A DNA stretch of 54,280 nucleotides. It comes from a virus. The notes beneath the pieces are model-generated. The model was not told the origin of the DNA and did no database searches. It saw nothing but the letters and a program-made list of their open reading frames with translations. Shown here piece by piece: positions 22,598-37,556 of the stretch (position 1 is its first letter; each line of letters starts with the position of its first letter). The translations under genes and the position numbers were made by a program. The stretch lies in IMG/VR virus record IMGVR_UViG_3300037493_002486, positions 1 through 54,280 of that record; one strand, 5' to 3'.

Positions 22598-22758
22598 CGC
22601 GCAACGAAATCACTGGAGACAAAATCCAGTCTAAGGTAAACGAGAACGACAAGTTTGACAAAAACTACGGTGAGATAGACTGGTCCGTTAAACTTGAGGA
22701 CACGCCCGTCAAGCCTGTAGAGGGGGTAAAAAATGAAGATGAATGTAATCCCAATTAA
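22591..22758 (+). CDS. small phage protein with NEITGDKI motif, 55 aa
   Basis: The ATG at 22591 overlaps the preceding stop, and the gene overlaps the radical SAM gene by 26 nt. The start MVARNEITGDKIQSKVNEN fits a small phage protein family in which a NAITGD motif is followed by SK and a Tyr-rich segment, known to me from proteobacterial phages. Function unknown. The overlap makes translation coupling with the radical SAM gene likely. Confidence 0.6.
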   Translation: MVARNEITGDKIQSKVNENDKFDKNYGEIDWSVKLEDTPVKPVEGVKNEDECNPN

Positions 22759-23959
22759 GGATGCATTAAAACAGAATAGTCCTTCGATACTAAAGCCTTC
22801 TGAGAAGAACACCTCTCTGCCATTAAAGCAGTTTTCTGATTACTGGCTAGAGAATATGGCCCTTCCTAATCCATCTGGACTAGGGCAATTGCAGATTACA
22901 TCCATCTGCGATTCAAGGTGTGAGTACTGCTCGAATGATTCAAATGAGTTTCTTACTGGTCGGAATAAGTTTAGAGACCTTGGTGAGATTGAAAAAGTAT
23001 TGTGGGCTATTCCCTTCAGCTTTTCAGGGACCTTTTATTTGAATGAAAGCTTGCCAGGCCGCATCAGTGAAGGGGAGGCATTACTGCACCCTGATATAGA
23101 TAAGGTTATGGCGCTAATACGTGCAAGGTTTCCGTACAACGTAATCAGTATAACCACCAGTGGCTCTCAGTTGTCACATGAAATGGTCGAAAGGATCGCC
23201 CCGTTTACGCCTATAGATATAGTCTATTCCATCCCTTCCTTCCAAGAGAAGCATTGGAACGTTATCTATAAACTAAAAGAAAAACATTTTAATAATTTTA
23301 TTAACTCGTTTGCTTTGATAAGGAATTATCTTTTTACATACCATGCAAACATTACACCGTTGCCGAGTATGGTGGGTTACGATGACTTAGACAACACGAT
23401 TAGATGCTGTAGAGAGGTTGGCATTAGCCATATCAACATCTACGCGCCAGGCTATACAAAATATACTCCAGAAAAAATAATTAGTTCGATGATTTACGAT
23501 AAATACGAATTAAGTAATTTCTTATCGGACATGTCGCGTAAGCATGATGTACTAATTACCTGGCCTTTGGATCCTAACATACCCTTATCCTTTCCGATAA
23601 ATAACCTGTCAGAGCATATGAAAAGTATATATCATCAAGGGCACAGGGAATGTTATTGGATGGTCTCTACCGCCGTTGCATCTAGGTTTAAAGAAGTAAT
23701 GGACAAGATAACAAGGACCATCCCTGTTGAAGCGCATGTAATACCTGTTGAGAACTCGAATTACGGTGGTAATATAGAAGTAGCGGGGCTGTTAGTCGTT
23801 GCGGATATTAAAAAGAAAGTAGATGAATTAAAACTAGAAGGTAAATACATCATTGTTCCAAGTACATTTTTAGATTTGTATGGGTTTGACTTAAATAGTG
23901 AAAACTTTTTAGATTATATTAAAACATCAAGTAATTACTTTTATGTATTTTCGTGGTAA
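22733..23959 (+). CDS. radical SAM enzyme with DUF512-like C-terminal region
   Basis: 408 aa. The [4Fe-4S] cluster motif CxxxCxxC is CDSRCEYC (C59, C63, C66), followed by SEGEALLHPD (112-121), the usual GGE-type SAM-binding motif. The C-terminal part (from V336, VIPVENSNYGGNIEVAGLL) matches the DUF512 pattern that follows radical SAM domains in a family of uncharacterised Fe-S oxidoreductases. No SPASM cysteine cluster is visible, so it is not PqqE. RBS AGAGGGGG. Substrate is unknown; it could act on RNA, a peptide or a host metabolite. The next genes are two small proteins, then pqqA 741 nt downstream. Confidence 0.8.
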   Translation: MKMNVIPIKDALKQNSPSILKPSEKNTSLPLKQFSDYWLENMALPNPSGLGQLQITSICDSRCEYCSNDSNEFLTGRNKFRDLGEIEKVLWAIPFSFSGTFYLNESLPGRISEGEALLHPDIDKVMALIRARFPYNVISITTSGSQLSHEMVERIAPFTPIDIVYSIPSFQEKHWNVIYKLKEKHFNNFINSFALIRNYLFTYHANITPLPSMVGYDDLDNTIRCCREVGISHINIYAPGYTKYTPEKIISSMIYDKYELSNFLSDMSRKHDVLITWPLDPNIPLSFPINNLSEHMKSIYHQGHRECYWMVSTAVASRFKEVMDKITRTIPVEAHVIPVENSNYGGNIEVAGLLVVADIKKKVDELKLEGKYIIVPSTFLDLYGFDLNSENFLDYIKTSSNYFYVFSW

Positions 23960-24700: not shown

Positions 24701-24772
24701 ATGTGGACCACACCAGCGGCAACAGAAATGCGCTTCGGCTTTGAAGTGACAATGTACGTAATGAACAAGTAG
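24701..24772 (+). CDS. pqqA: PQQ precursor peptide PqqA
   Basis: 23 codons. The peptide starts MWTTPAATEMRFGF and continues EVTMYVMNK. It matches classical PqqA peptides in length and pattern (MW-K/T-P, the FGFEVT-MY core and a basic end). Glu15 and Tyr19, the pair that PqqE crosslinks to begin PQQ synthesis, are at the same positions as in the 23-residue Klebsiella PqqA. The RBS AGGAG is 7 nt before the ATG, and a strong terminator begins 18 nt after the stop. No pqqBCDE in the window, so host enzymes are needed. An unusual cargo for a phage, likely a metabolic helper; it was too short for routine ORF calling. Confidence 0.93.
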   Translation: MWTTPAATEMRFGFEVTMYVMNK

Positions 24773-27458: not shown

Positions 27459-27719
27459 ATGCCGTCGAAGGATGAAGAAGTAAAACTAACTGGAATAACA
27501 CCAAGAAAGCATGCTGTTCGCCATAGTGGCAATGGAAGAGCTAAGTATCCGTTTAAGGCAATGATCATAGGTGACTACTTTACTGTGGGCACTGAAGCAG
27601 AAGCCATCAACATACGAGGCGCTTTGAAATCGTTTTACAGAAGGATAGAGAATAGGCGCTTTACTGTTCGCCAGCCTATCGATAATGATTACATATGGAT
27701 TTGCAGGAGGGTAAGCTAA
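27459..27719 (+). CDS. basic hypothetical phage protein, 86 aa
   Basis: The ATG at 27459 has GAGGAG about 9 nt upstream; the frame is open further upstream with only a TTG. The product is basic with SGNGRAKYPFKAMIIGDYFTV and a helix with RRIENRRFTVRQ, consistent with a small nucleic-acid-binding protein. Directly coupled to the terminase small subunit gene (TAATG). Function not known. Confidence 0.65.
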   Translation: MPSKDEEVKLTGITPRKHAVRHSGNGRAKYPFKAMIIGDYFTVGTEAEAINIRGALKSFYRRIENRRFTVRQPIDNDYIWICRRVS

Positions 27720-28462
27720 TGGCGCTTAAGGATGTTTGGAATGTTCCGCCCATCTTGGGGGATAAATTGCAGAAGAGACTATCTAGTAATGTAGGCTCTT
27801 TGCTTAGTCAGAAGAAGAAGTTAAACGGCCGCGAGTGGAAGTTTGTGCAAGAGCTGGTATCCGGTGACGGCCAAGTCACAATGAAAGAGTGCGCTATCCT
27901 TGCTGGCTTTAGTGAGAAATCAGCAAAGGTTACGGCATGGAAGCTTACCAATCCTGAAATCTGTCCGCATGTAGTTGCCGCGATCCAAGAGTATCGTGCA
28001 GAGTTAAATGCAAAGTATGGCACCAATTACGATAGGCACATGAAGGATTTGCAGTTGATACGGGATAAAGCGCTTGAAGCTGGCGCTTTCGGTGCGGCTG
28101 TATCTGCTGAATATCGTCGAGGTCAGGCACTTGGAACCATCTACATCGAGAGGAAAGAAGTTCGCATAGGCACCATCGATAGTATGAGTAAAGACGAAGT
28201 AATGCGTAAGCTTGAGGAAATCAAAAGAATTTACGGCGCTCCACCTCAAACCATCATTGATATGGAACCTATTGATGTAGAGAGCACCATCGAGGTTGAA
28301 CCGGCATTTGACGCAAACGAGGTAATAGAGAATGGCAATAAAACCAGAGGCGGGGCTATACAAAAGGCTGAAAGAGAATCTACCGGAGGCGCACATCACG
28401 AGAATAGAATCGAGAGTGAACCTAGGGATACCGGACTGTCTGATAGCGCTGAACAAGACTAG
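27719..28462 (+). CDS. terS: terminase small subunit (putative)
   Basis: The ATG at 27719 overlaps the preceding TAA and has AGGAGGG upstream. 247 aa. An N-terminal helix-turn-helix-like region (NGREWKFVQELVSGDGQVTM and KECAILAGFSEKSAKVTAW) matches the DNA-recognition domain of TerS proteins, followed by a helical segment for oligomerisation (ELNAKYGTNYDRHMKDLQLI). The last 44 residues are low-complexity and lie entirely in the overlap with the nuclease gene. It recognises packaging sites for the large subunit, which is encoded 7.6 kb away at 36087. Confidence 0.75.
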   Translation: MALKDVWNVPPILGDKLQKRLSSNVGSLLSQKKKLNGREWKFVQELVSGDGQVTMKECAILAGFSEKSAKVTAWKLTNPEICPHVVAAIQEYRAELNAKYGTNYDRHMKDLQLIRDKALEAGAFGAAVSAEYRRGQALGTIYIERKEVRIGTIDSMSKDEVMRKLEEIKRIYGAPPQTIIDMEPIDVESTIEVEPAFDANEVIENGNKTRGGAIQKAERESTGGAHHENRIESEPRDTGLSDSAEQD

Positions 28463-28748
28463 GTTTGTAATGGTGGAGCTGAAAGTGGTAAAGCGCGGTA
28501 AGAAGGTCGCGCTTAGTCCACACCAAGTAGCCTTCCATCTCAAGCATGCCAGCTTAGGCTGTCCCACATATATCTTGGTGCAGTATCATCCGGCCGGCAC
28601 AACATCTGCATTAAAGGCCGAGCTATTGCTATATGACGGATCGCAAGCAGAGGATTTGCTGTTGCGTGGCGTGGAATGTATCCCAGCTGAAAAATGGCCG
28701 CTATCACATGTGCATTGGCATATGTTTAGGCATGCTTTAACCGAGTAA
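28332..28748 (+). CDS. VRR-NUC-type nuclease
   Basis: 138 aa. The motif order of VRR-NUC (PD-(D/E)XK) nucleases is present: ESRVNLGIPDCL (D35), VELK with E49 and K51, and SPHQVAFH with Q65. Such enzymes cut branched DNA or serve as Holliday-junction nucleases in phages. The first 131 nt overlap the 3' end of terS in the +1 frame; the start cannot move downstream without losing the ESR-GIPD motif. Ends at a strong terminator. Confidence 0.8.
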   Translation: MAIKPEAGLYKRLKENLPEAHITRIESRVNLGIPDCLIALNKTRFVMVELKVVKRGKKVALSPHQVAFHLKHASLGCPTYILVQYHPAGTTSALKAELLLYDGSQAEDLLLRGVECIPAEKWPLSHVHWHMFRHALTE

Positions 28749-28751
28749 AAG

Positions 28752-28779
28752 AAAAGGGGCTTAGCGCCCCTTTTTTATT
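28752..28779. terminator. bidirectional terminator
   Basis: AAAAGGGGC-TTA-GCGCCCCTTTTTT: stem GGGGC/GCCCC with A and T runs on both sides. It serves the plus-strand terS operon and the minus-strand accessory operon, which meet here. Confidence 0.85.
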
Positions 28780-28933
28780 GCCCTCCAAATATATTTGCAA
28801 ATAGCAACATCGATAATAGTCTAAATATAGTGCTGAGTTTGAACGGTGCCTCCGGCGCCGCTGGTTTAGTCTCTATCGTTGCTCGCTCGCGTCGCAATCG
28901 TCTGCGTCGATCGTGTGGGTTTTCTCGTGGCAT
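28775..28933 (-). CDS. small basic/hydrophobic protein, 52 aa
   Basis: ATG at 28933, nine nt after the stop of the preceding gene. An Arg-rich N-terminus (NPHDRRRRLRRER) is followed by a Pro/Ala linker and a hydrophobic C-terminal helix (LSTIFRLLSMLLFANIF), a tail-anchored-membrane layout. It is the last gene of the minus-strand operon; its stop overlaps the terminator. Real but modestly supported. Confidence 0.45.
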   Translation of the reverse strand: MPRENPHDRRRRLRRERATIETKPAAPEAPFKLSTIFRLLSMLLFANIFGGQ

Positions 28934-28942
28934 AGCAAGTCA

Positions 28943-29155
28943 TCACCCCTTGTATACTCTAATTGCTTCATCTTCTATGTCATCAATGAATGAATCGCCT
29001 AAATCGCTTTCACGGACTGAATCGCCATCTTCATCTAGAATGCGCTTGATTGGCACTTCATACAATGTAGGGCTGTCGCCCGTGCCGTATCCGTCACGGT
29101 CTTCAGTCACATGCGCCGTTATCAAAAACCCTTGGTGCTCGAATTCAAAGCTCAT
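28943..29155 (-). CDS. small acidic protein, 70 aa
   Basis: MSFEFEHQGFLITAHVTEDRD followed by YEVPIKRILDEDGDSVRESD. Strongly acidic C-terminal half. Similar small acidic proteins occur in accessory regions of plasmids and phages. RBS AAAGGTAG. Function unknown. Confidence 0.65.
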   Translation of the reverse strand: MSFEFEHQGFLITAHVTEDRDGYGTGDSPTLYEVPIKRILDEDGDSVRESDLGDSFIDDIEDEAIRVYKG

Positions 29156-29161
29156 GGATAT

Positions 29162-29437
29162 CTACCTTTCAAATGCATTTAAATAATCGTTAACGGCCTC
29201 GCTGGCGGTCTCGCCCTCATAGCTGGTCGCTATAATCTCGGCGCAGTCTTCTTCTGATAATTCATACCTTAGCCGCTTGGCATAGTCTTTTAAATCCGTA
29301 TGGTCAAAACTAATCTCTTCTACATAAGAGGCATTCGCTGTCTGATAGCGATACTCTTTAGCACAAGCCAAGGCGTCTTTTTCGTTATCAAAGGTGCCTA
29401 AGCATGTGCCGTTATGGTTGTATGCATTAAATGTCAT
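29162..29437 (-). CDS. hypothetical protein, 91 aa
   Basis: MTFNAYNHNGTCLGTFDNEKDALACAKEY is followed by an acidic helical region (ELSEEDCAEIIATSYEGE). The N-terminus resembles a small beta-hairpin/helix unit often repeated in such accessory proteins. Start overlaps the stop of the preceding gene. Unknown function. Confidence 0.65.
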   Translation of the reverse strand: MTFNAYNHNGTCLGTFDNEKDALACAKEYRYQTANASYVEEISFDHTDLKDYAKRLRYELSEEDCAEIIATSYEGETASEAVNDYLNAFER

Positions 29438-29588
29438 CTTGCACCTCCATTAGTTTTTTTACATCAGTATCAATCAAGCATGCCACATCGTCCCTAAGGT
29501 CGCCTTCTGAAAATTCATTGATTAATACGCCTGTTTCCTCGTCGTATACACCTATCGTCACTTTGTAATACCATTTTCTAGTTTTCAT
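29427..29588 (-). CDS. small hypothetical protein, 53 aa
   Basis: ATG at 29588, ten nt after the preceding stop. MKTRKWYYKVTIGVYDEE, then EFSEGDLRDDVACLIDTDVK. The C-terminus overlaps the next gene start by 11 nt. Shape fits the chain of small accessory genes; it was too short for routine ORF calling. Confidence 0.6.
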   Translation of the reverse strand: MKTRKWYYKVTIGVYDEETGVLINEFSEGDLRDDVACLIDTDVKKLMEVQDDI

Positions 29589-29597
29589 ATTAAGCCC

Positions 29598-30059
29598 CTA
29601 TACATCGTATTGTTGATAAATAATTAATATACCGGTATTGGTTGAATGATTAAACGGTAGCCAGTTATAGTGCCGGCAAAAATACCCTCCGGCCTCTTGA
29701 TGAGTCTCTGCATAGTAATTAGTAGCAAAAAAATCCTCTACTCTGTCGGCCGTTATGTCCGCCTCAAAATCTTCAAGCTTTAAGTATAGGTCTTGCCCAT
29801 CTACGCCTAAGGGAATAGTCCCTATCCGCGTCACTTTTATTGTGTCCAAGCTTGGCACCTCCACGATCCTAAAATCTTCTCTGTCTGTGTAGTCTTTTAA
29901 ATTGCCGGCGTCTACTTCATGCTCCGTCTCTTTTAAAAACTCGTCCAGCGCGGCCTGTGCACTTTCTATGCTGTCGAACCTAGTAGGTTCGCCATCATCG
30001 CTCCATGTATTTTTCCATCCGCCACATAGGCAATACTCTTGCACTTCATACTTGGCCAT
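29598..30059 (-). CDS. accessory hypothetical protein, 153 aa
   Basis: Begins MAKYEVQEYCLCGGWKNTW, then a helix-rich part with FDSIESAQAALDEFLKE. It resembles a conserved hypothetical found on plasmids and in phages. Start lies one nt after the preceding stop. Function unknown; the context is antirestriction or plasmid-like accessory genes. Confidence 0.7.
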   Translation of the reverse strand: MAKYEVQEYCLCGGWKNTWSDDGEPTRFDSIESAQAALDEFLKETEHEVDAGNLKDYTDREDFRIVEVPSLDTIKVTRIGTIPLGVDGQDLYLKLEDFEADITADRVEDFFATNYYAETHQEAGGYFCRHYNWLPFNHSTNTGILIIYQQYDV

Positions 30060-30060
30060 A

Positions 30061-30219
30061 TCACACCCTCCCTTTCACTAGCGCATAAATCAATGCCAGT
30101 CTATCTGTCGTCATATTAAATAAAGCCGCCCCGAAATACTCTTCTATATCGCTAACAGTCCGAGCGGGTAATGCCTCCCTTATTGTTAGCTCCATCGCGT
30201 CTAGCATGGTCTCGGTCAT
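30061..30219 (-). CDS. small hypothetical protein, 52 aa
   Basis: I prefer the start ATG at 30219, which overlaps the TGA of the 26-aa ORF upstream (ATGA); a longer frame from 30273 is possible but would overlap that ORF. MTETMLDAMELTIREALP is helical and acidic, and the end is hydrophobic (RLALIYALVKGRV). Confidence 0.55.
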   Translation of the reverse strand: MTETMLDAMELTIREALPARTVSDIEEYFGAALFNMTTDRLALIYALVKGRV

Positions 30220-30296
30220 ATCACACCCCCAATTAAAAGTAGTGCTGTCGTTAAAGTAATTGCCCATAGGCATATCGTGAATGTCTTATCGGTCAT
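30216..30296 (-). CDS. micro membrane peptide, 26 aa
   Basis: ATG at 30296 after the repeated junction TAG-ACC-ATG, ends ATGA into the next gene. Peptide MTDKTFTICLWAITLTTALL is one hydrophobic segment. Its coupling on both sides supports it, but its length makes it uncertain. Confidence 0.45.
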   Translation of the reverse strand: MTDKTFTICLWAITLTTALLLIGGVI

Positions 30297-30299
30297 GGT

Positions 30300-30452
30300 C
30301 TATTCTTCCTCAATTAGTTTAATCATCTGCGCCAATGCGTCTGTATTAGAATGCCAGTCGGTCATCTCTATTAGCATAGGCTCTTTCTCGGCTATGTGAT
30401 TAATCAAGTCACATAGGTATTGCATTCTTGCTATCCTATATTGCTTGGTCAT
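30300..30452 (-). CDS. small hypothetical protein, 50 aa
   Basis: ATG at 30452 overlaps the preceding TGA (ATGA); the stop TAG precedes the next start by three nt (TAGACCATG). MTKQYRIARMQYLCDLINHI is a basic helix, and the end is acidic. Unknown function. Confidence 0.55.
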   Translation of the reverse strand: MTKQYRIARMQYLCDLINHIAEKEPMLIEMTDWHSNTDALAQMIKLIEEE

Positions 30453-30685
30453 AGCTCGTCCTCCCCTTCTTTGTCATCTTCCGGCTCCGGAAATAGATAG
30501 TCTGCCGTGAATTGGATAACATCCCAGTTTATGCCGTTGTTAGCGTCAAAATCATCGGCCAAAACTTCCAGCACTCTTAGCGCCTCGGATTCAGTTAAAT
30601 CCGGCCTTATGTTTAATACATCATCAATGTGCCAGTCGTCGGCTAAATACCAAATACCTGTCTCTGTCTGCTTCATATGTGCCAT
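30449..30685 (-). CDS. acidic hypothetical protein, 78 aa
   Basis: MAHMKQTETGIWYLADDWHIDDVLNIR has two helices with the segment LTESEALRVLEVLADDFDAN, and the end is DDKEGEDEL. This pattern is known to me from small genes on plasmids near antirestriction genes. Could be a DNA mimic by its acidity; not proved. Confidence 0.65.
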   Translation of the reverse strand: MAHMKQTETGIWYLADDWHIDDVLNIRPDLTESEALRVLEVLADDFDANNGINWDVIQFTADYLFPEPEDDKEGEDEL

Positions 30686-30688
30686 GGT

Positions 30689-30880
30689 CTAATCCTCTTC
30701 TATAATGCCGCTATCTAAGCATGCGGCTAATACGGTCTGCGCTAAGCGCCTATCTGCCATTATGGCCATCGCTATTGTTTCCTGTAGCTCTTGCCATTCG
30801 TCACGGTCTATGTTGCCTTGCCATTCATAATTATCAACAAGGCGGCTTATTGCCCATTCAATACTTGAGTGTAGATTCAT
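30689..30880 (-). CDS. hypothetical protein, 63 aa
   Basis: Helical (MNLHSSIEWAISRLVDNYEW and LQETIAMAIMADRRLAQTVL) with a short acidic end. Start overlaps the preceding TGA (ATGA), and the stop is followed by the TAGACCATG junction. Function unknown. Confidence 0.6.
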   Translation of the reverse strand: MNLHSSIEWAISRLVDNYEWQGNIDRDEWQELQETIAMAIMADRRLAQTVLAACLDSGIIEED

Positions 30881-31047
30881 AGTGTCGGCTCCCTATCTAG
30901 TGCGTCAATCGTATCAATAATGCAACTATCGGCCACGCTCATCAATCGCTCTATAGTGCCGTCGTTGATATCTTGCGCATAGTGATATACATTCGACAAT
31001 AATCGTTGCGCTTGGTCTAAGTCGCTAAGTATTTGGTCTCTTGTCAT
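30877..31047 (-). CDS. hypothetical protein, 56 aa
   Basis: ATG at 31047 follows a TAG-ACC-ATG junction; ends ATGA into the next gene. A predicted all-helical acidic protein (MTRDQILSDLDQAQRLLSNV). It was too short for routine ORF calling, but its junctions fit the operon. Unknown function. Confidence 0.6.
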   Translation of the reverse strand: MTRDQILSDLDQAQRLLSNVYHYAQDINDGTIERLMSVADSCIIDTIDALDREPTL

Positions 31048-31050
31048 GGT

Positions 31051-31239
31051 CTAGTCCCTTTCGTCAAAGTCACAATGTTTTAGCTCGGCCAATAGCTCGG
31101 CCTCGTCCATGTTTTTGAATCCCTTGAAGCCATACATTAACAAGTCCCATATTAGGCCATCATTAAAGCTAGTATCGGTTTGGCATAGCTCTAGGTTATA
31201 TTCCACAAGCTTGCTAATTAGTTCGTCTCTATCAGTCAT
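31051..31239 (-). CDS. hypothetical protein, 62 aa
   Basis: MTDRDELISKLVEYNLELCQ followed by LIWDLLMYGFKGFKNM and an acidic end (CDFDERD). Start is 16 nt after the stop of the gp88-like gene, with AAAGCGAGAAAG upstream. No function recognised. Confidence 0.65.
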   Translation of the reverse strand: MTDRDELISKLVEYNLELCQTDTSFNDGLIWDLLMYGFKGFKNMDEAELLAELKHCDFDERD

Positions 31240-31255
31240 TTTGCTTTCTCGCTTT

Positions 31256-31876
31256 CTAGTGTTTAAGGTAGGTTACATTGCTTACGGTTTTATCCCAGCA
31301 CGCGCGGCATGTTCCGCACTTGCCATTATTAGCTGGCGCTTTACATTCGACGCCATCTATCTTTCCGGCCTTGGTTATAACGGTGCTCGTTGTCGGCCAC
31401 GCTCCAGCTGGTGCCATGTCCAGCATTGGCATGCTTAGGCGCACGGTTAAATTATCCGGCATGGCTCGCTGTCTATTAACCTTGGCCAGTATGCCTTTCT
31501 CTTTCGTAGGTAGCCAAAAAGTCACCTCCGGCATGGCCTCGGCAATGTCCATGATTGCCATTAAATGCGCCTCGCTTTGAATATCGCCGCTGTCGTGCCA
31601 GCGAAAATAGCCGGTAGTATCATTGCTTTTAATGGCCGCTATCATACCGGCCTTCCACGAAGGCAAGTCACTAAGGGATTGCAAATTATGCTCCCTGTGG
31701 CTTATTACATTTTTAAATCGATAATTGCCTTTCATAGCATAGCAGTCATAGCATACGCTCCCTTTAATCTCGGCCAGCTGGCGGCCGGTCTTGCACGCCG
31801 TCGCCGGCGTGCTAAAGGTATGGCATGGCATTTTCTTAGGCTCGCTAAGCTTAGGCATGAATTGAATGGTCTGCAT
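31256..31876 (-). CDS. gp88-like phage/plasmid protein, 206 aa
   Basis: The N-terminus has a Cys pattern CHTFSTPATACKTG-17-CYDCYA, and there is a second CRACWD/CGTC cluster near the C-terminus, which resembles the 'gene product 88' family first named in mycobacteriophages and seen on many plasmids. It probably binds a metal. Function unknown; often near antirestriction genes. It overlaps the upstream gene by 26 nt. Confidence 0.7.
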   Translation of the reverse strand: MQTIQFMPKLSEPKKMPCHTFSTPATACKTGRQLAEIKGSVCYDCYAMKGNYRFKNVISHREHNLQSLSDLPSWKAGMIAAIKSNDTTGYFRWHDSGDIQSEAHLMAIMDIAEAMPEVTFWLPTKEKGILAKVNRQRAMPDNLTVRLSMPMLDMAPAGAWPTTSTVITKAGKIDGVECKAPANNGKCGTCRACWDKTVSNVTYLKH

Positions 31877-32411
31877 GGCGCGCGCCCTTTCTATTATATT
31901 CGTAATACCTTGCTATTGTTGCCTCGGCCTCTGCCTCGGCCTCGGCATGGTCAAAAAAGCCGCCGGCTCCGTCAATCCATTCGCCTGTTTCGTCCATGAT
32001 ATCAAAACGATATATGTTGCCAGTTAAATACCGGTCAAAATAATCAATCTCACGCGCTAGCCTTGCCTCTATGCCCGCTCGGCGCTTTGCTGTAATGCGC
32101 GTATAACCTAGCCAGTCGCGCACGCGCTCCGGCGTGGTGTATATAATTCCAAGCTGGCCGCTGTCCCAGCGGCAATTAAATGGCGTTGTGCTAATAGTAA
32201 TGCCGCCATGGTCATACATATAAACCGGTAAAATTATGGCGCGTGGTGCTGTCTTTTTTAAATCGGCAAGCCATTCCTCCGGCGCTTGTTTTGGTTGCTG
32301 GTCGCCAAGTGCATAGCGCCTATGCCATGTCACTATCACGCCTAAATTGTCACAATCGCGCGGATGATTTAATTCGCACTCGTCACGCTCTACAATAAAT
32401 GAATATGCCAT
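31851..32411 (-). CDS. plasmid-type accessory protein, 186 aa
   Basis: I use the ATG at 32411, two nt after the preceding stop (an ATG at 32417 overlapping that stop is equally possible; the open frame runs to 32492). The segment VERDECELNHPRDCDNLGVIVTWHRRYALG (split by two conserved turns) is typical of a family common on plasmids and phages. The C-terminus has an Ala/Glu repeat (HAEAEAEAEATIARYYE). Function unknown. Confidence 0.7.
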   Translation of the reverse strand: MAYSFIVERDECELNHPRDCDNLGVIVTWHRRYALGDQQPKQAPEEWLADLKKTAPRAIILPVYMYDHGGITISTTPFNCRWDSGQLGIIYTTPERVRDWLGYTRITAKRRAGIEARLAREIDYFDRYLTGNIYRFDIMDETGEWIDGAGGFFDHAEAEAEAEATIARYYEYNRKGARHADHSIHA

Positions 32412-32413
32412 GA

Positions 32414-32800
32414 TCATGCCGCCTTTTTTTGATTGATTGATGATGATATATATACCGGCTCCAAGTCCACGCCATTGAATAAGTCGCGGCACGATACCTT
32501 AAGCCGCTGGCCGGCCGCCTCGACGGTATACCAAAACTCCACGCCAAGCGTATCGCCATTGGTTGCGTCCGCTGGTAGCAGTCTTAAATCGCCGCCGCCG
32601 GCTTTCTTGTTAGCCGCTATAAATGAAGCCGCGAATTCGTCGGCCTCGAATCTTGGTAATTCCCATGCATAGGCTAAGGCGTTGGCAATAAACCGGTGCG
32701 CGCCGTATTCCGTCCAATGGGTAGGATAATTATCCCAATGCTTAAAAACTGTATAGGCGCCGTCGGCGTCTTTAAAAGTGTAAAGTCCACGAGTGCTCAT
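32414..32800 (-). CDS. accessory hypothetical protein, 128 aa
   Basis: Start at the ATG at 32800, preceded by GAAAGGGAT; the longer frame from 32872 would run through the hairpin spacer. The product begins MSTRGLYTFKDADGAYTVF, followed by KHWDNYPTHWTEYGAHRF. It has the look of a plasmid/phage-encoded protein of unknown role, next to antirestriction genes. Confidence 0.65.
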   Translation of the reverse strand: MSTRGLYTFKDADGAYTVFKHWDNYPTHWTEYGAHRFIANALAYAWELPRFEADEFAASFIAANKKAGGGDLRLLPADATNGDTLGVEFWYTVEAAGQRLKVSCRDLFNGVDLEPVYISSSINQKKAA

Positions 32801-32880
32801 AATTAAATCCCTTTCTATCTGTATGATTGAGCGGCCAGCCATCGCCGGCCGCTGGTTGCATTGTAATGCCATGTTTTAAA

Positions 32881-33234
32881 TCATTGCAAGCTTTTTATTA
32901 TGGCCTCGGTCGCGGCTATGGCATTGCTTAGTGCCTCCGCTATATGAACGGCGTGGCCTTTCGTATTGTGGCCATTAGCCAGCGCGGCCGCTATGCTCTC
33001 GGCGGATTCTTGGCTATATCTAGGCGCCTCGGCCAGCTTGCACGGCGACGCCTCCACTAGTCGCCAGCCGCCGGCCTCTCGCACCATCTTAGGTTTGATA
33101 GCTAAGTCGCCCACCATAATCACATGGCCAGTCCCTAAGAGCACGCCATCGAGCGCCGCCAGCGCGCGCTTGTTGGCCTCGTGGGTTTCAAAGAATTGCG
33201 GCGCCGCCTCGCGTAATAAGTCTAAATTGCTCAT
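32881..33234 (-). CDS. accessory hypothetical protein, 117 aa
   Basis: MSNLDLLREAAPQFFETHEANKR then a beta-rich part (GVLLGTGHVIMVGDLAIKPK) and helical end. Ala-rich, GC-rich codon use typical of this block. RBS CCGAGGCAAC weak. Function unknown. Confidence 0.65.
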   Translation of the reverse strand: MSNLDLLREAAPQFFETHEANKRALAALDGVLLGTGHVIMVGDLAIKPKMVREAGGWRLVEASPCKLAEAPRYSQESAESIAAALANGHNTKGHAVHIAEALSNAIAATEAIIKSLQ

Positions 33235-33250
33235 GGTTTGTTGCCTCCGT

Positions 33251-33466
33251 TTAATATAAGTCTAAAGTGTCGTTGTCCGCGCGGTCTTGCCACGCTTGCC
33301 GGTAGGCCTCCCGTCTATTAGGCTCCACCCAAGCGCCATACCATTCAGGATGTGCGGCTTGTAAATCGGCGGCCTCGTTTAATGCCTCCCGCTCTGTTTT
33401 GAATCCCGTTGAATAGGTGCATTCGTCGCCGCATTCATCGGCAATAATAATGTCGTAAGTTTGCAT
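33251..33466 (-). CDS. small hypothetical protein, 71 aa
   Basis: MQTYDIIIADECGDECTYSTG followed by helices (KTEREALNEAADLQAAHPEW). Two Cys at 12 and 16 in a CGDEC motif could bind a metal. Start has the AGAAAGGGAT leader. Function unknown. Confidence 0.65.
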   Translation of the reverse strand: MQTYDIIIADECGDECTYSTGFKTEREALNEAADLQAAHPEWYGAWVEPNRREAYRQAWQDRADNDTLDLY

Positions 33467-33519
33467 GGTTTAATCCCTTTCTATGGTTGCGGCGGCCATC
33501 GCTGGCCGCCATGGTTTAA

Positions 33520-33861
33520 TTAGTCAAAGCGTGAATAATCGCTGGCGTGCGGTATAAACTGAAGCGGCTCGCGCGGGCTGTCGTCCGGCTCCCAGTCGCC
33601 GCCATCGTCCGCCATCGCTGGCGCCTCGGCGGCCTCGGCCTTAGGCCAAATGAACATGGATTTAACTTCAAAATCCAATTGCGCCGCCGCGTCAATGCCG
33701 CGCTTAGCGTTGGCCTCGCGCACTAGCTCGGCGGCCTCGTCGCCGGTGCCCCAATCTAAATTGGTAGGCGTATAGCCGCGCTCGCCGCGTTTGATTATGG
33801 CGATATTAGCGCCAGCTGGCTTGTTTAATAAAACGGTATAACATAGATTGAATGCTTGCAT
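33520..33861 (-). CDS. accessory hypothetical protein, 113 aa
   Basis: Start at the ATG at 33861, preceded by AGAAAGGGAT; the longer frame from 33900 includes the conserved leader and is not used. MQAFNLCYTVLLNKPAGANI, then KRGERGYTPTNLDWGTGDEA, and an acidic C-terminus. Unknown function. Confidence 0.65.
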   Translation of the reverse strand: MQAFNLCYTVLLNKPAGANIAIIKRGERGYTPTNLDWGTGDEAAELVREANAKRGIDAAAQLDFEVKSMFIWPKAEAAEAPAMADDGGDWEPDDSPREPLQFIPHASDYSRFD

Positions 33862-33952
33862 GGTTTTTAATCCCTTTCTGTCTGTATGGTTTACTTGCAT
33901 AAGACCGGCGACGCCGCCGCCGGTTTCGCGCCCTTAGCGCTCATCAGTTATG

Positions 33953-34819
33953 CTATGCCGCCTCGGCCTCGGCGTCCGCCGCCGTGCCCTTGATATAATC
34001 CGCCGCTTTCTGAGCCAGCGCCGCCGCCTTGAATATGGCCGTGTTATCGTCGCGGCATGCCTTGAGCCAGCTCTGAATATATCCGGCATGGCGTAGCTCG
34101 CCGGCGATACCATTATCGGCGCAAAGGTAAGCGGCGCCAATTTCGGCGACTAGCTCTTCAAATGCATAAGCCGGATTCCCAAAACGGCCGCTATGGTCGC
34201 GCGCCAGTCTATGCTTAGCGCCTGTCCAATGCGTGAGCTCATGAAAGGCCGTGGCGTAGTAATGCGCGGCGCTGTCGAATGTGGCTTTATGCGGCAATTG
34301 CACGGCGTCGGTGCTCGGCATGTAGAAGGCCGCGTCGCCGCCATGGCGAATGATTGCGCCGGTTTTAACTATGGCCGCCTCGCATTGCTCGCTGGCGTCG
34401 AATGGCACGGCCACGGGCTCGGCCACCGGTGCGCGCTCGGCGTCGGTCTGCTCGATGTTAAACACGCTGTAAGCTTTTAGCACGGCATAGCCGCTGGATT
34501 TTTCACCGGTCGCCGCGTCCACGGTGCCGGCCACCGGTTTATAAAAGCAAATGGCCGTCCCTTTCTGTCCCTTGAGCACTTGCGCGCCGCGGTCTTGCCA
34601 TTGCTTATATGTTGCCCATTGGCCGGCCGCGTAGCCGTTGCCCATGCTGGCCATGCCTAGAATTAAACGATTCACGCCGCGATAGGCCGCGCCGGTCACG
34701 ATATTATGGTCGGCGCCGCTTGCCGCGTCGGCGTGCCATGGTTTAACCCAAGGCGCCGCGCCCTTTTCGAGCTCGGCGATAATTTGGTCGGTTACTGTCT
34801 GATAAATTGGATTTGTCAT
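33953..34819 (-). CDS. ardC: ArdC-type antirestriction protein with metallopeptidase domain
   Basis: 288 aa. N-terminal ArdC domain (residues about 5-125: YQTVTDQIIAELEKGAAPWV, PWHA, YRGVNRLIL, KQWQDRGAQVLKGQKG), which binds ssDNA in known homologues. C-terminal zincin has HELTHWTG (193-200), the HExxH zinc motif. ArdC proteins occur on conjugative plasmids and phages and protect incoming DNA from type I restriction. The block around it, with gp88-like and small genes, looks like a plasmid accessory region. Second gene of the minus-strand operon. Confidence 0.9.
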   Translation of the reverse strand: MTNPIYQTVTDQIIAELEKGAAPWVKPWHADAASGADHNIVTGAAYRGVNRLILGMASMGNGYAAGQWATYKQWQDRGAQVLKGQKGTAICFYKPVAGTVDAATGEKSSGYAVLKAYSVFNIEQTDAERAPVAEPVAVPFDASEQCEAAIVKTGAIIRHGGDAAFYMPSTDAVQLPHKATFDSAAHYYATAFHELTHWTGAKHRLARDHSGRFGNPAYAFEELVAEIGAAYLCADNGIAGELRHAGYIQSWLKACRDDNTAIFKAAALAQKAADYIKGTAADAEAEAA

Positions 34820-34873
34820 TCTGCTAGTCCCTTTCTTTCTGTATGGTTGCGGCGGCCAGCTGGCCGCCGTGGT

Positions 34874-35152
34874 CTATTGGTTGTAGCTGTTCCACCAGCC
34901 GCCCATGAATTCGTTGTCTGAAAAGTCCGCGACTAGTTCGTCGTCGGCTAAGCCAAGCACTACCAGCGCCCAGCCCAGCTTTTCACCGGCGGCGTCGCGG
35001 ATGATTAATTGCGCTTCTTCGACGCTCTCAATGTCCGCAATAATTTGGTTATGGCTGGCGCTCTTTTTACATGCCCATTCTTCGCCGTCATAAACTGAAA
35101 CGGTATGGCCGGCGGCTAATGCATGCTTTACTAAGTGTCTATATGCTTTCAT
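34874..35152 (-). CDS. first gene of the accessory operon, 92 aa
   Basis: Start at ATG 35152 preceded by GAAAGAAAGGGCACACC; the longer frame from 35188 is not used. The product starts MKAYRHLVKHALAAGHTVSV, followed by a small alpha/beta part with IIRDAAGEKLGWALVVLGLA, and an acidic end. Resembles small plasmid proteins; function unknown. Confidence 0.65.
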   Translation of the reverse strand: MKAYRHLVKHALAAGHTVSVYDGEEWACKKSASHNQIIADIESVEEAQLIIRDAAGEKLGWALVVLGLADDELVADFSDNEFMGGWWNSYNQ

Positions 35153-35214
35153 GGTGTGCCCTTTCTTTCTGTCTGCTGTATGTTGCACGCCGCGCCCGCG
35201 CCGTGCTAGTTCCT

Positions 35215-35242
35215 ATATTAATGATATACGGCACGCCGTCAA
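35215..35242 (-). promoter_or_regulatory. candidate promoter of the minus-strand accessory operon
   Basis: Read on the minus strand: TTGACG (35242-35237) and TAATAT (35220-35215) with a 16-nt spacer. Inverted arms CGGCACGC (35229-35236) and GCGTGCCG (35253-35260) flank the -35 box, so a dimeric regulator could control it. Confidence 0.5.
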
Positions 35243-35430
35243 GCGCTTTTTCGCGTGCCGGTTACCTAGTCCGGCCAATGCCGGCCAGCATGCCCGCAAA
35301 GGCGCGCCGGTGCACGCTCACGCCGTCCAATTGCCGGCGGCCGGCTTGGTGCCTTGCCTATATAATAACCAAGCCCACGGCGCGTGAGCCGTGGAGCGTG
35401 TCCCGTGTGCCATGGTGCGATACGCGTGGC

Positions 35431-35504
35431 CGGTGCCCGTGTCCGGAAAAAAGCCTGGTCACATTGCCGGTGTCCGTGTCCGGAAAAAAGCCTGGTCACA
35501 TTGC
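35431..35504. repeat. tandem 37-bp direct repeat
   Basis: Copy 1 at 35431-35467 and copy 2 at 35468-35504 differ at one base (position 6). Each copy contains CCGTGTCCGGAAAAAAGCC followed by TGGTCACATTGC. Looks like iterons of the adjoining origin-like region. Confidence 0.75.
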
Positions 35505-35506
35505 AT

Positions 35507-35545
35507 GTTAGTAGGCGCTAACCTAAAATGTTAGTGGTCACTAAC
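35507..35545. repeat. two GTTAG dyads
   Basis: GTTAG-N6-CTAAC at 35507-35522 and GTTAGTG-GT-CACTAAC at 35530-35545, start to start 23 nt. Candidate binding sites for a dimeric protein between the tandem repeat and the DnaA boxes. Confidence 0.55.
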
Positions 35546-35634
35546 CAATGCGCAAAGTCGCATGCCCAGCAAGGCCAGTTTTAAGCGCGCTATAAGGCGC
35601 GTGATTCGTTTTGAACCTACCATACAGGGCTGGT

Positions 35635-35802
35635 TGTGGATATCCTGTGCGTTTCCTGTGGATTCGCTGTGGATAGAATGTGGATAACTTTCCGTGGCAA
35701 ATGATCATAATTGTGGATAACTTGCCTGTGGATAAGCTGTGGATAACCCTGTGCATGAATTGTGGATAACTTTTGGCCTAACAGATCATAGAATGTGGAT
35801 AA
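35635..35802. other. origin-like DnaA-box cluster
   Basis: Nine TGTGGAT sites, all in one orientation, starting at 35635, 35657, 35668, 35679, 35712, 35727, 35738, 35761 and 35794. Six are exact TGTGGATAA, the complement of the high-affinity DnaA box TTATCCACA. Distances are mainly 11, 22-23 and 33 nt, so the sites lie on one face of the helix. An AT-rich stretch follows at about 36010-36085. This is the layout of a DnaA-dependent origin. The whole 35153-36086 interval holds no gene. Confidence 0.8.
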
Positions 35803-35976
35803 CTTTTTCACGGTCCGCGGTCCATGGTCGCCGGTCCACGGCCCGCGGCCGGCGCTTAGGGGGGCAGAGTCCCTGAAACCGTTATGGTTATGTAAGTGAG
35901 CACTCACTAACCCACCCCAAAAAATTCCCCACCCTCGGCGGCCGTCCGCACACTTTAGCCCGATTTCGCACAGTTT

Positions 35977-36006
35977 TTGGCACTCCAAACGAAATTGAGG
36001 TATTAT
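35977..36006 (+). promoter_or_regulatory. candidate promoter of the terL operon
   Basis: TTGGCA (35977-35982) and TATTAT (36001-36006) with an 18-nt spacer, 80 nt before the terL start. Confidence 0.45.
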
Positions 36007-36086
36007 GACCCTACAAATAGGCCCCCTTGTTTTAATAAAGCCATTGCTAGAAAAATTTTTACAAAAATTAAAGAGAATGAAAACAT

Positions 36087-37556
36087 ATGCTTAGCGTCTC
36101 TGCAGCTGAACAAGCCTCTATTGAGCAGGCTAGATTAGAGCTTCGTCTTCTCCAGATTGAAGCGCAAGAAAAAGCCCGAAAGGACTTCTTGTCCTTTGCA
36201 AAATACGTATGGCCAGAGGCTATCTTTGGCGCGCACCACACAAAAATGGCAGATGCCTTTAACCGTCTAGCAGATGGGACCTTGAAAAGACTGATCGTTA
36301 ACATGCCTCCGCGGCACACCAAGTCTGAGTTCTCGTCCTATCTGCTACCCGCGTTCATCATGGGCCGTAAGCCAAAAACCAAGATCATTCAAGCGACCCA
36401 CACCGGGGAGCTTGCCGTGCGCTTTGGCCGTAAGGTCCGTAACTTGATGGACACAGAAGAGTACAAACAGGTCTTTGATGACGTAGCCCTTCGAGCAGAC
36501 TCCAAGGCCGCCGGTCGGTGGGACACGGACCATGGTGGGGAATACTTTGCTGTCGGTGTGGGCGGCGCGATGACGGGCCGCGGTGCGGACTTGTTGATCA
36601 TTGATGACCCGCACTCGGAGCAGGACGCTTTGTCAGAGCTCGCCATGGAGAACGCATGGGACTGGTACACCTCCGGCCCTCGTCAACGGCTCCAGCCTGG
36701 TGGTGCTATTGTCATTGTGATGACACGTTGGAACACCAAGGACTTAACGGCACGTCTTGTCAAGGCACAGGCCAGCCATAAAGCCGACCGCTGGGAGATT
36801 ATTGAATTCCCTGCAGTCTTGCCTAGCGGCAATCCAATGTGGCCGGGGTTCTGGAAGCTTGAAGAGTTGCTCGCGGTCAAGGCCTCTTTGTCACCGCAAA
36901 AGTGGCAGGCCCAGTGGCAACAACAGCCAACCAACGACGAAGGCGCTATTCTGAAAAGGGACTGGTGGCAAGTGTGGCCTAGCGACGAGGCACCGCCTGT
37001 TGAATACATCATCCAGTCGTATGATACGGCTTATTCCAAGAAAGAGACGGCCGACTACTCTGTAATCACGACCTGGGGCGTGTTCTACCCGGACCAAGAC
37101 TCAGGGCCTAATATCATCTTGTTAGACGTCACGCGAGGTAGGTGGGATTTCCCGGAGCTTAAACGTATTGCCAAGGAAAGCTACGACCAGTGGAAGCCTG
37201 ACAATGTGTTGATCGAGGCCAAAGCGACAGGGATCACGCTTCAGCAGGAGCTAAGGAGAATGGGTATTCCTGTGACAATGTACTCACCGGGTGGCCGACG
37301 TAGCGGACAGGACAAGGTATCGCGTGCGCATTCTGTTGCACCCATCTTGGAGGCTGGTATGGTGTGGGCCCCGGACACGGACTGGGCAGAGGAATTAGTG
37401 GAAGAGTGTGCTGCATTCCCGAATGGCGACAACGATGACATGGTCGACAGCACGACGCAGGCATTGAATAGATTTAGGGCAGGTAATTTTATATCTCTTG
37501 GCAGCGATTTATTAGAGGATGAAAAGCAACAAGATGTTGCATTCGAATACTATTAA
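36087..37556 (+). CDS. terL: terminase large subunit
   Basis: 489 aa. ATPase: adenine region GAHHTKM, Walker A-like PPRHTKS (74-80), Walker B LLIIDDP (169-175), coupling motif MTRWN (about 212). Nuclease domain: SYDTAYS, a central IEAKATG and NDDMVD near residue 459 supply the acidic residues of the RNase H-like fold. The enzyme packages DNA into proheads through the portal. Preceded by AAAGAGAATG and the candidate promoter at 35977. Confidence 0.95.
   Translation: MLSVSAAEQASIEQARLELRLLQIEAQEKARKDFLSFAKYVWPEAIFGAHHTKMADAFNRLADGTLKRLIVNMPPRHTKSEFSSYLLPAFIMGRKPKTKIIQATHTGELAVRFGRKVRNLMDTEEYKQVFDDVALRADSKAAGRWDTDHGGEYFAVGVGGAMTGRGADLLIIDDPHSEQDALSELAMENAWDWYTSGPRQRLQPGGAIVIVMTRWNTKDLTARLVKAQASHKADRWEIIEFPAVLPSGNPMWPGFWKLEELLAVKASLSPQKWQAQWQQQPTNDEGAILKRDWWQVWPSDEAPPVEYIIQSYDTAYSKKETADYSVITTWGVFYPDQDSGPNIILLDVTRGRWDFPELKRIAKESYDQWKPDNVLIEAKATGITLQQELRRMGIPVTMYSPGGRRSGQDKVSRAHSVAPILEAGMVWAPDTDWAEELVEECAAFPNGDNDDMVDSTTQALNRFRAGNFISLGSDLLEDEKQQDVAFEYY

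Follow-up and report, generated by a model that had tools for sequence, protein, structure and literature searches.

A DnaA-box array beside a minus-strand gene block between the terminase genes of an IMG/VR virus: a candidate platform for the host initiator

Background

The virus record IMGVR_UViG_3300037493_002486 (IMG/VR; 54,280 bases, without end repeats) was analysed over its whole length, hereafter the window, with attention to an array of DnaA boxes in a noncoding region beside a block of minus-strand genes, which together separate the genes of the small and large terminase subunits (terS and terL). The nearest described systems are of different kinds. The Escherichia coli origin oriC contains DnaA boxes together with clusters of low-affinity boxes beside an unwinding element (PMC6127211), and at datA clusters of DnaA boxes can affect DnaA activity (PMC4585315). 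The mycobacterial extrachromosomal prophages RedRock and Miko carry parABS and either RepA or an RNA-based origin (PMC7157519), and for one published Pseudomonas phage an origin with DnaA boxes has been predicted by software. The role of a large noncoding region between the early and late genes of a phage is often guessed; a DnaA array that recurs makes the question testable across phages, namely whether the host initiator is used to start replication, is disarmed, or serves as a gauge of copy number.

Results

The DnaA-box array

The noncoding region (35156-36086, 931 bp) contains six exact DnaA boxes (TTATCCACA), all on the minus strand and placed within 124 bp (35679-35802). Two boxes with one mismatch, at 35635 and 35668, bring the total to eight within 168 bp. 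No exact box was found outside this region in the 54-kb window, for which the dinucleotide content predicts 0.47 exact boxes against the six observed, and the cluster is beyond chance. An earlier note on this DNA had described an accessory operon flanked by noncoding DNA that looked like an origin; this is supported, as a real DnaA-box array lies there, and the array is a candidate assembly platform for host DnaA.

Among 80 TerL loci the array is present in eight near relatives (TerL 95-98% identical). When the eight relatives (L002-L009) were aligned with the window, the graded 11-bp units that include the weaker boxes were nearly unchanged and the flanking repeats were variable: pairwise identity is 0.89 for the units, degenerate ones included, and 0.31-0.77 for most neighbouring stretches. 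Degenerate units such as TGTGCGTTT are invariant across the nine genomes. The least stable stretch of the region (36043-36092), which belongs to the least stable 0.6% of the genome, is about 240 bp from the last box.

Similar arrays in other phages

Viral contigs were scanned for three exact DnaA boxes in a tight direct array, with the reversed box as control. At least 120 stretches were found, compared with 9 for the reversed box, and this control rules out chance as the source of the arrays. The counts that follow, and those used in the Discussion, are among the arrays listed. The commonest spacings of the boxes in 119 arrays are 11, 12, 22, 21 and 33 bp, the number of boxes ranges from 3 to 11, and only 10 of the 119 arrays lie inside an open reading frame (ORF) of at least 120 residues. 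The largest or second-largest noncoding gap of the locus is occupied in 62 of the 75 loci where gaps could be ranked (37 others were unrankable). A general AT-rich trough beside the arrays was considered and rejected, the guanine-plus-cytosine (GC) content showing a mild 3-5% dip on both sides, as noncoding DNA gives.

A local profile recognised terS in 37 loci; in every one of them the array precedes that gene by 226-602 bp, in the same orientation in 24 and in the opposite one in 13. It lies at most 2.5 kb upstream of TerL in 50 of the 56 loci where TerL was recognised; since one lineage provides 35 of these, the count by lineage (50% identity) is the fairer one, and it places the array 0-2.5 kb upstream of TerL in 9 of 13 lineages where 3.7 are expected (P 0.002), an expectation derived from the fetched stretches, which surround arrays. 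In the nine loci having both GP88 and terS (eight of them from that same lineage) the array lies between these two divergent genes. DnaA pads just upstream of packaging genes recur in about nine phage lineages. No description of them was found, and no publication on DnaA boxes near the terminase small subunit gene, in a literature search of partial coverage that is weak evidence of novelty. For uncultured viruses, the array offers a simple means of recognising such regions from sequence.

The gene block between terS and terL

The two terminase genes are separated by 19 consecutive minus-strand ORFs (28775-35155) followed by the 931 noncoding bp. This agrees with the earlier note, which counted about 18 minus-strand genes and named ArdC, a gp88-like protein and small acidic proteins among them: both families were confirmed by Pfam, and 13 of the 19 ORFs have a predicted isoelectric point below 5. 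In the ArdC-like protein, ArdcN (E 5e-36) and MPTase-PolyVal (E 2e-48) both score above the cut-off and the HEXXH motif is present as HELTH, so that the product, judged from its domains, fits the ArdC antirestriction family, defined by ArdC-N and a zincin peptidase with HEXXH. For the block ORFs other than ArdC and GP88 no Pfam family was above the cut-off, although the ORF at 31851-32414 matches phrog_6186 (E 7e-18). No defence-system or NCBIfam name was matched by the larger block proteins, and no Rfam family was found in the window.

The borders differ in part from what had been described. A terS-like gene is indeed at the left, but a nuclease-like gene, read here as VRR-NUC-like, intervenes before the block starts. 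Sequences matching a promoter and a terminator exist at the two ends of the operon, as had been claimed; matches of these types in the region are about two-fold over shuffles (20 vs 11.6 and 18 vs 9.1), and the two signals are plausible, not proven. The features are collected in Table 1. The window is probably a fragment without the tail-fibre and lysis part. Its nearest fuller relative, G001, has 61,095 bases, and the additional 10.6 kb were read by eye as tail-fibre and lysis genes.

Table 1. Features of the terS-terL interval and its borders in the window (positions 5' to 3')
Feature	Position	Strand	Evidence or remark
Terminase small subunit-like gene, left border	27695..28462	+	phrog_51 E 1e-9
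Nuclease-like gene, between terS and block	28332..28748	+	phrog_2165 E 2e-14; phrog_93 endonuclease E 3e-5
Candidate intrinsic terminator, end of minus operon	28752..28774	-	9-pair hairpin stem and T-rich tail
Accessory operon, distal half: 11 small ORFs, 10 acidic	28775..31239	-	most have homologues in L002-L009
GP88 family protein	31256..31876	-	Pfam PF17338 E 2e-30
Five ORFs with no assigned function: 187, 128, 117, 71, 126 aa	31851..33900	-	
ArdC-like antirestriction protein: ArdcN and zincin peptidase (MPTase-PolyVal)	33953..34819	-	PF08401, PF18818; phrog_7245 E 4e-82
First gene of operon, 93 aa, no assigned function	34874..35155	-	phrog_5680 E 7e-12
Candidate sigma-70 promoter, minus operon	35215..35242	-	TTGACG-N16-TAATAT
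Two tandem 37-bp repeats	35429..35502		poorly conserved among relatives
Two GTTAGT...ACTAAC-type palindromes	35505..35546		second one largely retained in relatives
Five consecutive 11-bp units, graded DnaA boxes	35635..35689		TGTGGATAT, TGTGCGTTT, TGTGGATTC, TGTGGATAG, TGTGGATAA
81-bp insertion, window genome only, adding four exact DnaA boxes	35712..35792		alignment with L002-L009
Last exact DnaA box	35794..35802	-	
Conserved terL leader	35952..36086	+	pairwise identity 0.96; includes least stable 50-bp stretch of the region
Candidate sigma-70 promoter, terL	35977..36006	+	TTGGCA-18-TATTAT
Terminase large subunit, right border	36087..37556	+	phrog_38 E 1e-113

The terS-terL gap in related phages

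The earlier note proposed to check whether related phages lack the block; on the contrary, most of it is carried by the five near relatives whose contigs reach far enough, the other three being too short. The other loci with both terminase genes on the contig mostly hold about 3.4-7 kb of different, mainly plus-strand genes in the gap, without the array, and in four loci terS directly precedes terL. As distant relatives hold different genes there, the gap is, to judge from gene order, a variable cargo site of this phage family, and the accessory operon can be regarded as ordinary phage cargo. L090 is the sister of the near clade. Its terL is 3.2 kb from ArdC, yet its array still lies beside ArdC, so that the array stays with the end of the operon.

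Components of the block also appear in other phages. An ArdC gene divergent from terL lies in the gap of L116 (TerL about 64%), the circular genome ct2os315 (MW202796; L297 15863-17411) has ArdC next to GP88 on the arm that diverges from terL, and a GP88 homologue (39-41%) is found on the minus strand of the gap in the cultured pelagiphage HTVC027P and the complete genome 023Pt_psg01. None of MEP301, CRP-4, ct2os315, DSL-LC04, HTVC027P and 023Pt_psg01 showed a DnaA array in the genome or stretch that was read, and for this reason no cultured test phage was found.

The leader before terL has counterparts in distant relatives (window 35952-36086; L157:11783-11925; L116:4330-4445), which share CTTTAGCCC, TTTCRCACA, GGCCCCC and an AT-rich end. 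This leader may be a packaging site or a late promoter.

Palindromes with at most one mismatch from parS (TGTTTCACGTGAAACA) were found close upstream of terL in 19 TerL rows from several separate clades. Such parS-like palindromes keep a steady position, 16-97 bp before TerL, in about 20 relatives (L010-L081) and are candidate ParB sites; among the records checked there was no ParB gene. Four parS-like sites (at most two mismatches) and iteron-like repeats are present in L116:4480-4860. In L013, L022 and L024, where terS stands directly before terL, a parS-like palindrome lies inside the terS reading frame, close to its end.

Host and other observations

A gene for a PqqA peptide of 23 residues (MWTTPAATEMRFGFEVTMYVMNK; PF08042 E 3e-10), the precursor of the pyrroloquinoline quinone (PQQ) cofactor, is present at 24701-24772 of the window. 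G001 (L280) encodes it as well, L188 has a similar peptide, and in Methylophilales phage MEP301 it is present but unannotated. These findings suggest that the phage PqqA is an auxiliary metabolic gene, and the host may reasonably be guessed to be a methylotroph of the Methylophilales. Separately, a radical S-adenosylmethionine (SAM) protein with DUF512 and a weak match to viperin (pVip) is encoded at 22733-23959.

Base composition

The block was said to be richer in GC than the rest, with many CGCC words. Both observations stand, its GC content being 0.503 compared with 0.454 ± 0.035 in 2-kb windows outside, and CGCC occurring 13.4 times per kb compared with 2.1 elsewhere, a bias that three near relatives show too. 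However, the sliding windows that the earlier note proposed revealed a gradient with no sharp border: GC is 0.42-0.45 at 29.0-31.0 kb, 0.55-0.60 at 33.0-35.5 kb and 0.59 within terL (36.5-37.0 kb). The distal block is thus near the genome mean and the portion beside the noncoding region is the richest. A sharp-edged composition island was ruled out, the rise continuing into terL, and the gradual change, together with the high GC of terL itself, argues against recent insertion of a sharp-edged segment.

Discussion

It is highly probable that the locus consists of a phage-native block plus a DnaA platform. That the main role of this platform is a replication origin is possible and is put forward with reserve; taken as a whole, the best explanation, which we hold tentatively, is a phage-native operon with a host-DnaA platform working as, or in, the phage origin. 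The operon would occupy the variable terS-terL locus and be transcribed leftward, away from terL, with an antirestriction gene of ArdC type close to its start. The platform, lying between the two divergent units, would offer strong and weak boxes in one orientation, several of them one helical turn apart, on which host DnaA could oligomerise. DnaA might then open nearby DNA, the candidate site being the AT-rich terL leader (36043-36092), and recruit the DnaB of the host, none being encoded by the phage, and synthesis at the resulting forks would continue with the family A polymerase and the primase that the phage encodes. ArdC, together with the small acidic proteins, would counter restriction and other functions of the host early in infection. 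That DnaA binds, that strands open, that the site acts as an origin and that the operon is expressed early are all predictions from sequence.

An origin is favoured because the boxes are graded and phased, because they occupy the main noncoding region, and because no DnaB gene is found among the phage replication genes, which comprise a family A polymerase, an AEP-type (archaeo-eukaryotic) primase and UvrD and SNF2 helicases. Several observations weigh against it. No AT-rich stretch abuts the array, the candidate being about 240 bp away and resembling a leader that array-less relatives also have, and skew at third codon positions does not switch at the array. Confidence is held down by relatives with a 77-78% identical polymerase that have no exact array upstream of terL, and by array-bearing phages equipped with a DnaB-type helicase and polymerase A of their own (three of ten records). 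As relatives with the same polymerase lack the array, the shared replisome does not need it, and its role may instead be titration or promoter control; both the array-less relatives and the phages with their own helicase would be better explained by a sponge or a switch than by an origin.

As a sponge, the array on multiplying phage genomes would titrate host DnaA, or inactivate it as datA does, so that rounds of replication of the host chromosome stop. We consider this rather unlikely, although it agrees with the known effect of box clusters on DnaA activity, with the phages just mentioned, with the free orientation relative to terS and with the variable number of boxes, which was raised here by the four-box insertion. 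A pure sponge should nevertheless drift toward the consensus, yet degenerate units such as TGTGCGTTT are invariant in nine genomes, and alone it gives no reason for arrays upstream of the terminase. In a switch, DnaA bound between divergent promoters would regulate the operon and terL, and its dilution by rising copy number would free the terminase promoter. The array does lie between candidate divergent promoters and, in most lineages, upstream of terS or TerL, and sister lineages have a near-perfect parS palindrome, the site of another host protein, at the same place. The boxes of the window are, however, at least 175 bp from either candidate promoter, and distance and orientation differ between lineages; a switch is accordingly judged unlikely. 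More generally, many terminase lineages might place host-protein sites (DnaA arrays, single parS) upstream of the terminase, their dilution timing the change from replication to packaging, an idea that we regard as improbable. It is very unlikely that the noncoding region is a packaging start site (cos or pac) with incidental boxes: the leader with CTTTAGCCC...TTTCRCACA...GGCCCCC upstream of terL is common to DSL-LC04 and L116, but the box array is separate, about 150 bp further upstream, and is confined to the near clade plus a few separate lineages.

The earlier note had suggested a plasmid source for the block with its origin, or replication of the phage as a phage-plasmid. Origins of theta plasmids contain DnaA boxes, which counts for this proposal, as do the GC-rich block and the frequency of ArdC on plasmids (3,055 records, best identity 45-47%), ArdC taken alone being compatible with a plasmid. 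Its rarity among phage polyvalent proteins, reported for ArdC-N (PMC5512222), points the same way. However, ArdC has a nearer counterpart among named phage records (closest match 51%), and GP88 is full-length in cultured phages and gives only weak plasmid matches, in 18 records, all actinobacterial. The search of the block against plasmids that had been advised returned DNA matches to ArdC fragments alone (69-72% identical), and no plasmid carried several block genes together. Plasmid capture was rejected on these grounds, ArdC alone among block DNA and key proteins having good plasmid matches; it also fits poorly with near relatives holding the block, with a terS-terL gap common in the family and with a GC gradient that enters terL. 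A phage-plasmid fared no better. ParA (PF13614) was absent from 8 family records and ParB (PF02195) from 14, lists that include G001, the nearest full relative, and have the window itself outside them, and DnaB was absent from the family records tested. Among the window proteins scanned, which leave out some small ORFs, there was no RepA-type replication initiator family, and reading the extra ORFs of G001 gave no rep or integrase gene. A TerL search of 84,980 species genomes, by exact peptide patterns only, returned one contig, in a metagenome-assembled genome. Both forms of the proposal are most improbable.

The preferred reading, a phage-native operon with a host-DnaA platform working as, or in, the phage origin, can be placed among the known systems as follows. 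The pelagiphages of HTVC023P/HTVC027P type and DSL-LC04 resemble this virus in TerL (55-78%) and in having several genes between terS and terL, with GP88 in the gap of HTVC027P; HTVC027P and DSL-LC04 differ in their gap genes and in having no exact DnaA boxes in the stretches read. The genome ct2os315, from Manatee Spring, shares the adjacent ArdC and GP88 on a minus arm divergent from terL, but has a single exact DnaA box and other gene content. In RedRock and Miko, as here, a noncoding region of the phage genome is proposed to serve replication, whereas their parABS, RepA or RNA-based origin was not found by the searches made here. The left half of oriC is similar in its strong and weak DnaA boxes near a low-stability stretch, although the phage array has no abutting unwinding element and sits between divergent transcription units. 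Like datA and other DnaA titration sites, the array groups DnaA boxes in noncoding DNA away from the host origin; it differs from datA in being more tightly phased and in lying on a multiplying phage genome.

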